Below are positions 7,262 through 41,755 of a stretch of DNA of 64,000 bases, piece after piece. Every line of letters starts with the position of its first letter. Position 1 is the first letter of the stretch. Under the pieces are notes generated by a model. The model saw nothing but the letters and a program-made list of their open reading frames with translations. It did not search any database and was not told the DNA's origin. Origin of the DNA: Anaerolinea sp. (GTDB lineage Bacteria; Chloroflexota; Anaerolineae; Anaerolineales; Anaerolineaceae); the NCBI GenBank assembly GCA_020725865.1, contig DYEC01000012.1:186001-250000 (forward strand), given 5' to 3'. Position numbers and translations under genes: made by a program.

Positions 7262-7291
7262 TTGACAAAAAGGTTTTTTTTGTGTTAATAT
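7262..7291 (+). promoter_or_regulatory. Strong promoter of the glnA leader
   Basis: TTGACA at 7262-7267, 17 bases, TTAATA at 7285-7290 (TAATAT one base later). Transcription would start near 7298, about 375 bases before glnA, so the structured leader is transcribed. Confidence 0.8.
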
Positions 7292-7344
7292 GCAGACAAT
7301 CTATGCACTGCTAAAGTGGCTTTAAAATTAAATATGGAGAAATA

Positions 7345-7556
7345 GCGGCTGAGTCTCACTGATATAGTGAGATAACGAGGTGGAGGTTCCTCCCTGCAAA
7401 GGGAGTGCTAACTCCGGGTGAGTAATTTCACTTGGGGAAAAATCGAAGGATCAGCGGATGCCTCTGAAGCCTGATCACGGGCTTCTTTCTCCCTTCCAAA
7501 TAAGCCCAAGCAGAAAACTGGGTGGTAACAACCAGGACAATGCTGGGCGGTGATCG
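7345..7556 (+). ncRNA. glmS-class self-cleaving ribozyme (expanded) in the glnA leader
   Basis: The RNA matches the glmS ribozyme core as I remember it. Predicted cleavage is between A7344 and G7345 in AGCGGC. P1 is TCTCACT/AGTGAGA (7354-7372). The core block ACGAGGTGGAGG is at 7375-7386, with G7380 in the place of the catalytic G40 of the Thermoanaerobacter ribozyme. ATCGA is at 7442-7446 and GCGGATGCCTC at 7454-7464. P2 is GGAGG 7382-7386 with CCTCT 7461-7465; the P2.2 counterpart is GCTGA 7348-7352 with TCAGC 7451-7455. P3 is GAAGCC/GGCTTC (7466-7485); its loop GATCAC 7473-7478 pairs with GTGATC 7550-7555 as the P3.1 pseudoknot. P4 is 7504-7512 with 7541-7548 and holds GGACAA. About 54 extra bases forming two hairpins separate the core block from ATCGA. 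The 5' strand AGCGGC differs from the usual AGCGCC. Known members sense glucosamine-6-phosphate. Confidence 0.75.
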
Positions 7557-7622
7557 GTAAAGGTTTTTACTTTTACTGAGCTATTTTGGGAAGGGCTGCT
7601 TCGAGCTGTGGATTGTCAACTC

Positions 7623-7649
7623 AAGGCATGCCTGGCATGCCTTATTTTT
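7623..7649 (+). terminator. Intrinsic terminator or attenuator between ribozyme and glnA
   Basis: AAGGCATGC-CTG-GCATGCCTT is a perfect 9-bp hairpin followed by ATTTTT, ending 23 bases before the glnA start. It would either end a separate ribozyme RNA or act as an attenuator for glnA. No clear anti-terminator pairing was found by eye. Confidence 0.65.
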
Positions 7650-7672
7650 ATATCAATGTTTGGAGGTATCAA

Positions 7673-9007
7673 ATGAATGCTGATGATTTGCTCAAACGAG
7701 TTCGAGAGGATAATGTCAAGTTTATCTCTCTCCAGTTTACGGATGTTGTGGGTACCGTAAAGAGTGTGGATATGCCTGTTCAGCAACTTCCAGAAGCCCT
7801 AGAAAATGGAATCTGGTTTGATGGGTCTTCGGTTGAGGGTTTTGCCCGCATTCAAGAAAGCGATATGCACTTGCGACCGGATATTGACACATATGCGGTT
7901 TTACCGTGGTCACCGATTGAATTGCGTCGGGCACGACTATTTTGTGATATCTATCAGCCAGACGGGACGCCGTTCGCGGGGGACCCGCGTGGTACACTGA
8001 AGCGTATATTGGCAAAATTAAAAGAGCGTGGCTGGACATATAATGTTGGTCCTGAGCCAGAATTCTTTTTGTTCAAGCCGAATAATGGGGGAGTCCACCC
8101 AGTACCCCATGATGTGGGAGGATATTTTGATTTTTCACCTCATGATGAAGCTGTGCGGGTACGGTCGGAATTGATGGAAGCGCTGCGTTCAATGGGCCTT
8201 GAAGTTGAGGTTGGTCATCATGAAGTTGCAATTGGGCAACATGAAATTGACTTCCGATTTGCGGATGCGTTGCGCACGGCGGATAATGTGTTGACGCTAA
8301 AATACACGGTTAAGGCAATTGCTGCACAAAATGGATTAGTAGCATCTTTTATGCCTAAGCCCATTTTTGGTATTAATGGCTCGGGAATGCATTGTCACCA
8401 ATCATTGTTTAACGCCGAAGGAGAAAATCTGTTTTATTCTGATGATGACGAGTACCATCTTTCGCCAATCGCTTATGGATTCATTGCTGGTCAACTTCAC
8501 CACGCCAGAGCACTTTCAGCGGTAGTTGCGCCAACTGTTAATTCTTATAAGCGTTTGGTTCCAGGGTATGAAGCTCCCGTATATGTGGGATGGGCTCAGA
8601 TAAATCGCTCAGCGTTAATCCGAATTCCGCGCTTCACCAAGGGGCAGCATAAAGCAATGCGAGCTGAGCTACGTTGTCCCGATCCTTCCTGCAATCCGTA
8701 TTTGGCTTTCACGGCAATGCTGGCTGCCGCTTTAGATGGCATTGATCGCGGGATGACTCCGCCTGATCCGCTAAATAACGTGAATGTATATCACCTGACA
8801 CCTGAAGAACGAGCACAATGGAACATTCGAGAACTTCCAGGTTCCTTGCTGGAGGCGCTTAGTGAGCTGGAGTCGGACAGTGTGATCAAGTCAGCCCTAG
8901 GAGAAGCTATTTATGAAACCTTCCGACGAGCAAAGCTGGAAGAATGGGATGAATTCCGCATTCGGGTGATGGATTGGGAAGTGGAACGTTTCCTGGAAAG
9001 TGCGTAA
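7673..9007 (+). CDS. glnA: Glutamine synthetase, type I (GSI-alpha-like)
   Basis: Makes glutamine from glutamate, ammonia and ATP as a cytoplasmic dodecamer. The 444-residue product starts MNADDLLKRV with GGAGG at 7662-7666; an upstream in-frame ATG at 7586 is rejected because it would run through the terminator hairpin. Family marks: WFDGSSVEGF, the Mg-binding GPEPEFFLF, the HHEVAIGQHEI block, GINGSGMHCH, the VPGYEAPVYVGWA loop and RIPRF. The adenylylation site and 25-residue insert of GSI-beta enzymes are not evident, as in GSI-alpha of Gram-positive bacteria and Chloroflexota. It stands alone between a ribozyme/terminator leader and a strong downstream terminator, so the leader is its only visible control. 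Confidence 0.95.
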   Translation: MNADDLLKRVREDNVKFISLQFTDVVGTVKSVDMPVQQLPEALENGIWFDGSSVEGFARIQESDMHLRPDIDTYAVLPWSPIELRRARLFCDIYQPDGTPFAGDPRGTLKRILAKLKERGWTYNVGPEPEFFLFKPNNGGVHPVPHDVGGYFDFSPHDEAVRVRSELMEALRSMGLEVEVGHHEVAIGQHEIDFRFADALRTADNVLTLKYTVKAIAAQNGLVASFMPKPIFGINGSGMHCHQSLFNAEGENLFYSDDDEYHLSPIAYGFIAGQLHHARALSAVVAPTVNSYKRLVPGYEAPVYVGWAQINRSALIRIPRFTKGQHKAMRAELRCPDPSCNPYLAFTAMLAAALDGIDRGMTPPDPLNNVNVYHLTPEERAQWNIRELPGSLLEALSELESDSVIKSALGEAIYETFRRAKLEEWDEFRIRVMDWEVERFLESA

Positions 9008-41247: not shown

Positions 41248-41550
41248 CAAAAAAACATCCGTCCCGTTTGAGGACGGATGTTTTTATCCGCGGTGCCACC
41301 TCAGTTAGGCTGTTATACAAAAACCCCCCGGTGATGACGCACGGGGGGAAAGCCAGCCTCACTCGTTACGGGTACAGCAAGTTGCGATACCCTTTGCCAT
41401 GATAACGGTGGCAACTCCGGCTCGGGCTACTTGGCAATTCGTTCACCCTGCAACTCTGAGGTCCATTCCGTAACGCTGTGCGGGCAGGCTCTCACCTTCC
41501 CTGCTCTCTGTTCCGCCATCACGTTAAGTACTCGTCCTCTTCAACGTCTT
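41248..41550 (-). promoter_or_regulatory. T-box riboswitch (Trp specifier)
   Basis: The reverse-strand leader has the T-box bulge GGTGGCACCGCGGAT (41286-41300) and, right after, the terminator stem ACATCCGTCC/GGACGGATGT (41255-41281) with a T7 tail. UGG in GGAATGGACC (complement of 41463-41465) is the likely specifier, read by uncharged tRNA-Trp. Low charging would favour antitermination and trpB2 expression. A TATACT -10 lies at 41553-41558. Confidence 0.9.
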
Positions 41551-41755
41551 TCAGTATACTCTTGTATGCTACAGCAAATTTAGATAGATTATATGTGTTT
41601 CACGCAAAATGTCAATAGGATTTCTGAACTTCGGACATGAGTTAGGACATTGGTTGGAAAAGAGCTTCACGGCCGATAAACTTGATTTAGTACAAACCAC
41701 ATCGGCAGGAGGCTCCTATGAAAAAATTATATTCGTCTTCTTCGTTTCATGTAGC

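Follow-up and report, generated by a model that had tools for sequence, protein, structure and literature searches.

Among ribozymes that take a metabolite as cofactor, the glmS ribozyme is the textbook case, and to our knowledge it is known almost only from glmS mRNAs. The locus studied here raises the question of whether a ribozyme of this class also stands in front of glnA, and what it would do there. The window, a 64,000-nucleotide stretch of an Anaerolinea sp. genome (contig DYEC01000012.1), holds a glnA gene whose leader had been read, from its letters alone, as a glmS-class ribozyme. We now consider it probable that this 5' leader holds a distinct subtype of the glmS-class self-cleaving ribozyme, with a proposed feedback of glucosamine-6-phosphate (GlcN6P) on glutamine synthetase.

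Detection of the ribozyme in the glnA leader

Positions 1-167 of the Rfam model for the glmS ribozyme (RF00234) align to window positions 7333-7558 with 33.5 bits (E 3e-6, cmscan on 501 bases). In the whole genome, searched with E up to 10, this is the best of three RF00234 matches. The sequence-only reading had named this search as the check on its claim, and the outcome is divided: the full model aligns, with a genome-wide E of 4.4e-6, but the score falls under the Rfam gathering score of 37. The ribozyme is consequently missing from a default Rfam scan of the window, which reports only a T-box and two tRNAs. The T-box leader lies at 41267-41553 on the minus strand and scores 108.9 bits.

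The match in the glnA leader is not due to chance, because a match precedes glnA in 25 of the 41 genomes of the window's family; the look at other glnA leaders that had been suggested thus favors the claim. Compared with 100 shuffled versions, the 375-nt leader folds better by 5.5 standard deviations. The glutamine riboswitch (glnA RNA, RF01739) shares the link to nitrogen assimilation, but is absent from the four Rfam matches found in the leader with E up to 10.

The features of the locus are given below, where A2 is an alignment of 41 glnA leaders described in the next section.

7262-7291, + strand: sigma-70-like promoter TTGACA-18-TAATAT (3 such sites in the stretch on both strands, against 0.9 expected)
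7333-7558, + strand: whole glmS ribozyme match, RF00234 model 1-167, by covariance-model alignment
7344-7345, + strand: predicted cleavage site A(-1)/G1, by homology; same A and G in 41/41 A2 leaders, whose picking pattern contains them
7346-7352, + strand: P2.2 5' strand C2 G3 G4 (bulged) C5 U6 G7 (A8), pairing with 7451-7456
7353-7373, + strand: P1 hairpin, 5/6 pairs changed on both sides
7376-7378, + strand: P2.1 5' strand CGA, within ACGAGG, pairing with 7443-7445
7382-7386, + strand: P2 5' strand GGAGG, pairing with 7461-7465
7390-7405, + strand: inserted hairpin A, inside the core, 6/6 pairs changed on both sides
7412-7437, + strand: inserted hairpin B, inside the core, 5/5 counted pairs changed on both sides
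7443-7445, + strand: P2.1 3' strand UCG (A2 alignment), by homology a strand of the cofactor pocket
7451-7465, + strand: P2.2 3' strand UCAGCG and P2 3' strand CCUCU (A2 alignment)
7466-7485, + strand: P3 hairpin with loop GATCAC at 7473-7478, 6/6 pairs changed on both sides
7491-7497, + strand: CCCUUCC, 5' strand of a long-range P5-like helix, partner GGAAGGG at 7589-7595
7517-7540, + strand: P4 hairpin and GGACAA (RF00234 alignment)
7550-7555, + strand: P3.1 3' strand GUGAUC, pairing with the P3 loop
7589-7595, + strand: GGAAGGG, 3' strand of the P5-like helix (motif-pair count)
7623-7653, + strand: intrinsic-terminator-like hairpin (7623-7643) and U-rich tail, common in glnA-linked copies and rare in glmS leaders
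7662-7666, + strand: Shine-Dalgarno-like GGAGG of glnA, read from the sequence
7673-9007, + strand: glnA, type I glutamine synthetase of 444 aa, the genome's only TIGR00653 match

All of the motifs named earlier could be located: AGCGGCTGA at 7344-7352, ACGAGGTGGAGG at 7375-7386, AAATCGA at 7440-7446, GCGGATGCCTC within 7451-7465, GGACAA at 7535-7540, and P3 with its GATCAC loop and the matching GTGATC. The cleavage site proposed at A7344/G7345 corresponds by homology to A(-1)/G1. Four features had been missed: the shifted bulge in P2.2, the copy that belongs to glmS itself, the terminator-like hairpin, and the spread over the Anaerolineales.

Transcripts from the promoter-like site would begin at about 7298, ahead of the ribozyme. 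Such a site lies upstream of the ribozyme in 37 of the 41 A2 leaders (7/41 shuffled) and in 25 of 46 matches of a second set (3 shuffled), where the controls, as for the terminator, P5-like helix and operon-promoter comparisons below, are single base shuffles per locus.

The fold is conserved among glnA leaders

The 41 distinct direct glnA leaders of A2 were taken from 109 by the pattern AGCG[G/A]CTG and aligned. Nine identical duplicates and L092, which is without the 5' strand, were left out by name, and the others outside A2, which show no core pattern in the 420 nt next to glnA or duplicate no other leader, were also passed over. A covariance model built from A2, here called R1, replaced pattern searches; a regular-expression survey had found 48 of the 109 leaders and was dropped, as it often took the wrong AGC for the 5' strand. 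The second set of 46 was found through R1.

In A2, the helices P1, P2, P2.1, P2.2 and P3 and two inserted hairpins, which come after the first strand of P2 and before the second strand of P2.1, are paired in 98.4% of 1512 cells; for the core helices P1-P2-P2.1 the value per helix is 95.9-100%. Pairing falls to 35-48% when the partners are slid out of register. Changes on both sides occur in 23 of 37 pairs (138 cells), a number as high as this being reached in 0 of 500 shuffles, and covariation is found in P1, P3 and both inserted hairpins. In P2.1 covariation is absent and in P2.2 only the outer pair varies; the case for these two helices is therefore their identity with the known ribozyme. 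The ACGAGG motif is present in 41/41 A2 leaders, in 65/65 glmS-linked copies and in 46/46 matches of the second set.

The P3.1 pseudoknot is likewise supported in glnA leaders. The partner of the P3 loop lies 62-68 nt past P3 in 30 of the 41 A2 leaders; in the other 11 the best pairing lies elsewhere or is weak. The pairs covary through several compensating forms (GATCAC/GTGATC, GGTCAC/GTGACC, GTCGC/GCGAC, TTCAC/GTGAA and GCCAC/GTGGC), and the mean pairing score is 13.5 with a leader's own tail versus 11.9 with swapped tails, 0 of 200 swaps reaching 13.5.

With the glmS mRNA ribozymes of Bacillus subtilis and Thermoanaerobacter tengcongensis, the window copy has in common the double pseudoknot of P1, P2, P2.1 and P2.2, the A/G cleavage site, P3 with the P3.1 pseudoknot, P4 and GGACAA. 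The differences are its location on glnA, a P2.2 bulge moved to position 4 from position 6 of the published core, a long-range helix and a downstream terminator-like hairpin. In addition, the glnA-linked core holds two hairpins where the RF00234 consensus has about ten bases. Those of the family's glmS-linked copies that were read likewise have two hairpins in the core. Deinococcus-Thermus variants of the glmS ribozyme, described by McCown and colleagues in 2011, are also said to carry extra stems in the core, but those lie on glmS. The long-range P5-like pair CCCUUCC/GGAAGGG, with close variants, was found in 69 of the 81 copies linked to glnA but in none of the 65 linked to glmS and in no shuffled tail; the helix is mostly one sequence and hence has little covariation.

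A shifted bulge in P2.2

The sequence-only reading had regarded AGCGGC in the 5' strand as its main weak point. The motif is truly present, but it does not hold as a weakness, since it is conserved across relatives' glnA leaders: the strand reads AGCGGCTG in 36 A2 leaders and AGCGACTG in the other 5, all 41 having been chosen by AGCG[G/A]CTG. In glnA-linked copies P2.2 is formed by C2-G56, G3-C55, a bulged G4 or A4, C5-G54, U6-A53 and G7-C52. The published core has C2-G56, G3-C55, C4-G54, C5-G53, a bulged A6 and G7-C52 (PMC7125110). The window copy thus has a P2.2 with one bulged nucleotide beside the cleavage site, at a position other than the canonical 6.

In a wider set of 81 glnA-linked copies (80 distinct cores), 41 were picked by pattern as A2 and the other 40 were recovered through R1. 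The form with the bulge at 4 is the only one that fits in 74/74 readable copies (65 GCU and 9 ACU, always with A53), and these include 33 of the 40 model-recovered copies, all bulge-4. The remaining 7 of the 81 have neither a readable AGCG 5' strand nor a readable A(-1)/G1, so function may have been lost or altered in some lineages. In four glnA-type copies, judged by eye (L147, L184, L252 and L253), the 5' strand and cleavage site are unrecognisable and the rest of the fold is kept. Among 65 glmS-linked copies, 36 fit only a bulge at 5 and 5 only a bulge at 6, and none fits bulge 4 alone; 15 are equally compatible with 4, 5 or 6, another 7 match none of these forms, and 2 are unreadable. Their P2.2 is mostly CAU with A53 (bulge 5) or CCN with G53 (bulge 6 or ambiguous).

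Published mutants bear on this arrangement. A6C rescues C4A about 24-fold, position 4 then presumably being bulged (Andreasson et al. 2020, PMC7125110), and the same source suggests that a P2.2 with its bulge moved to the centre cleaves better than mismatched forms. Bulge-shifting mutants regained activity only in part in that screen (PMC7125110), so the activity of the bulge-4 subtype in cleavage may be below that of the canonical ribozyme. Judging from its conservation, AGCGGC is best taken as the signature of a ribozyme subtype. In the glnA subtype, the P2.2 rearrangement seen among mutants appears to have become fixed in nature. We know of this rearrangement otherwise only from a mutant screen.

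A changed P2.2 beside the active site, in front of a different gene, could also mean that the fold was kept and the ligand changed, the subtype answering some other amine or sugar phosphate tied to nitrogen supply. The difference is confined to the bulge, however, and the motifs that by homology make up the pocket and active site (AGCG, ACGAGG, AUCG and GCGG) are common to the glmS-linked copies; we think a new ligand quite improbable, and retain GlcN6P.

Distribution in the Anaerolineae

RF00234 matches (E up to 0.1) were found in 36 of the 41 genomes of the window's family. In the 25 with a glnA-linked match, it lies on the same strand 107-217 nt upstream of the GlnA match, the distances having been paired by eye and one of the 25 (G406) being partial. 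Only 8 of these 25 exceed the gathering score, with 53.1 to 37.3 bits, and the ortholog in Bellilinea caldifistulae reaches only 23.7 bits. Strains with a glnA-linked ribozyme include Levilinea saccharolytica KIBI-1 and Bellilinea caldifistulae GOMI-1. An R1 match is absent from 4 (L093-L096) of 28 family glnA loci (L069-L096) picked mostly for already having a match.

At 80 named GlnA loci, the best of 570 relatives, R1 finds the ribozyme in 58: 32 have no gene between it and glnA, 4 have a gap of ~1.2-1.3 kb holding eamA, and 22 have a gap of ~2.1-2.4 kb. At the other 22 of the 80 there is no R1 match; in nine of these the sequence upstream of glnA is no longer than 1.2 kb, and the locus edge cuts 7 of the 58 positive loci, so the misses are partly technical. 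The long gaps hold a gene for an Ada-like AraC/methylguanine methyltransferase and an EamA exporter gene, which were identified on L135 and, at other loci, by reading frames or tblastn. The order ribozyme, ada, eamA, glnA occurs in 11 of 16 regions around strong R1 matches (L239-L254); among the others, L239 is directly on glnA, two (L240 and L252) break off behind ada, L251, from outside the Anaerolineales, is on glmS and L254 on glutamate synthase. The loci with both genes between the ribozyme-terminator unit and glnA (L241-L250, L253 and L135) belong to a sister family. No promoter signal before ada or glnA was found at 17 operon-type loci (ada 8.6 versus shuffled 8.2; glnA 8.1 versus 8.4).

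Across the class, R1 matches (E up to 1e-6) occur in 212 of 396 genomes and RF00234 matches in 217 of 396. The 19 R1 matches with at least 106 bits, among the matches listed, all come from two families of the order, one of them the window's own. One locus (L218, 306-4007) has a tandem arrangement of ribozyme, glnA, ribozyme and glmS. GlnA relatives were also seen in viral contigs (10 loci, 45-58% identity).

The copies on glmS and on other genes

In the window's genome, glmS lies elsewhere (C10:378594-380429, minus) and has its own copy: the second RF00234 match, of 21.3 bits, ends 96 bases upstream of it. Together with the single TIGR00653 match behind the window ribozyme, this indicates one copy each on glmS and glnA. 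R1, although built from glnA leaders, recovers the glmS leaders of the family and class as well (65/65 sources). GGACAA is present in 0 of 24 family glmS leaders, in 25 of 41 other glmS leaders and in 25 of 81 glnA-linked copies, and the Rfam alignments of three family glmS copies (L098, L099 and L216) skip 48-50 model positions in the 3' domain. The family's glmS leaders have thus lost this domain, and the fuller ribozyme in this family is the glnA copy. Upstream of two glmS ribozymes, on the opposite strand, there are glycine-riboswitch-like matches below the family cut-off (L105, 1185-1363, +, 68.5 bits; L099, 1134-1309, +, 60.5 bits).

In a tree of 101 chosen ribozyme cores (49 glnA-linked, 47 glmS-linked and 5 other; 142 columns), in which inner branches are weak, the glnA-linked cores form one clade with one intruder, the glutamate-synthase-linked L254 (FastTree 0.93, IQ-TREE UFBoot 91). 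The few copies that have lost the 5' strand might be taken as a sign that the glnA-linked ribozyme is an inactive relic of a duplicated glmS leader. A relic seems very unlikely to us, as the copies form one clade that spans many genera, most helices show compensatory changes and the cleavage site is conserved. The recurrence in relatives, the covariance-model match and the conserved core residues all argue for a glmS-class ribozyme before glnA.

Among 20 class loci (L219-L238), glmS is downstream in 18. At L235 (353-1943) a glmS ribozyme stands before a DegT/PseC-like amino-sugar transaminase gene, and at L237 (306-3000) the gene behind the ribozyme fuses a CofD domain of the YvcK/GlmR-like kind to a GlmM-like phosphohexomutase. 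GlmR has been proposed as a stimulator of GlmS in B. subtilis. Neither GlmS nor GlnA was found within the short loci of two further ribozymes (L011 and L015).

In three Anaerolineae genomes the ribozyme, with a 5' strand of the glmS type, is in front of genes related to glutamate synthase. In L254 and L258 the gene has the glutamate synthase domain PF01645 (343 and 342 bits), and the next frame has a glutamine amidotransferase domain (26.4 bits, where the Pfam cut-off is 27, and 28.3 bits). That the L254 frame opens within the ribozyme is only an effect of calling frames from their earliest possible start. In L255 the gene product is an FAD/Fe-S protein, whose glutamate synthase domain scores lower, at 51 bits.

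The terminator-like hairpin and the proposed control of glnA

A terminator-like hairpin within 260 nt was found in 32 of 41 A2 leaders versus 2 shuffled, and in 37 of 46 in the second set, which includes six copies not linked to glnA, versus 0 shuffled. In contrast, only 7 of 65 glmS leaders have one, versus 3 shuffled. The hairpin is retained where ada and eamA lie downstream. In the window it has nine pairs followed by ATTTTTATAT, and 29 nt separate the hairpin from the ATG. An anti-terminator pairing between AUGCCU of the ribozyme and AGGCAU of the hairpin was considered by eye and dropped, as L083 combines the same ribozyme core with another hairpin.

The frequency of this hairpin in glnA leaders and its persistence with ada and eamA downstream raise the alternative that cleavage is minor and the hairpin does the work, the ribozyme and terminator forming an attenuated leader or a separate short RNA. 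With the hairpin only 29 nt from the start codon, however, glnA in the window is probably transcribed through it, and most copies retain both the core and the cleavage site; we give this alternative only a small chance.

We infer instead that the leader undergoes GlcN6P-dependent cleavage and controls glnA, most likely through GlcN6P-triggered cleavage and decay of the glnA mRNA. When GlcN6P is plentiful, it would enter the ribozyme pocket as cofactor and the RNA would cut itself between A7344 and G7345. The glnA mRNA, now with a 5'-OH, would then be degraded, the candidate nuclease being an RNase J homologue; one is encoded in the genome (588.5 bits). In B. subtilis the 3' cleavage product is degraded by RNase J1 (PMC7125110). 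High GlcN6P would thus mean less glutamine synthetase, and the terminator-like hairpin before the start codon probably adds attenuation as a second layer. GlmS uses up glutamine in making GlcN6P, so under the proposed control the product would act back on the enzyme that supplies its nitrogen donor.

Implications

In the open-licence PMC literature we found no description of a glmS ribozyme linked to glnA, to glutamate synthase or to the Chloroflexi. All but two of the glmS ribozymes surveyed by McCown and colleagues in 2011 reportedly lie in glmS mRNAs, so an example like the present one may have been noticed before.

We see about an even chance that a broader account is correct, in which the glmS ribozyme was recruited once in the ancestry of the Anaerolineales and gave rise to the bulge-shifted subtype with its terminator, coupling GlcN6P to glutamine synthetase and, in a few genomes, standing on glutamate synthase as well, so that the amino-sugar pool would govern GS-GOGAT by self-cleavage and attenuation. 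A conserved glnA subtype would be a clear transfer of the glmS ribozyme to another pathway, and would directly link cell-wall precursors to nitrogen assimilation at the RNA level. Its occurrence in named strains, Levilinea saccharolytica and Bellilinea caldifistulae, makes the idea testable. The distribution of these leaders suggests that many Anaerolineales may tie nitrogen assimilation to the supply of cell-wall precursors.
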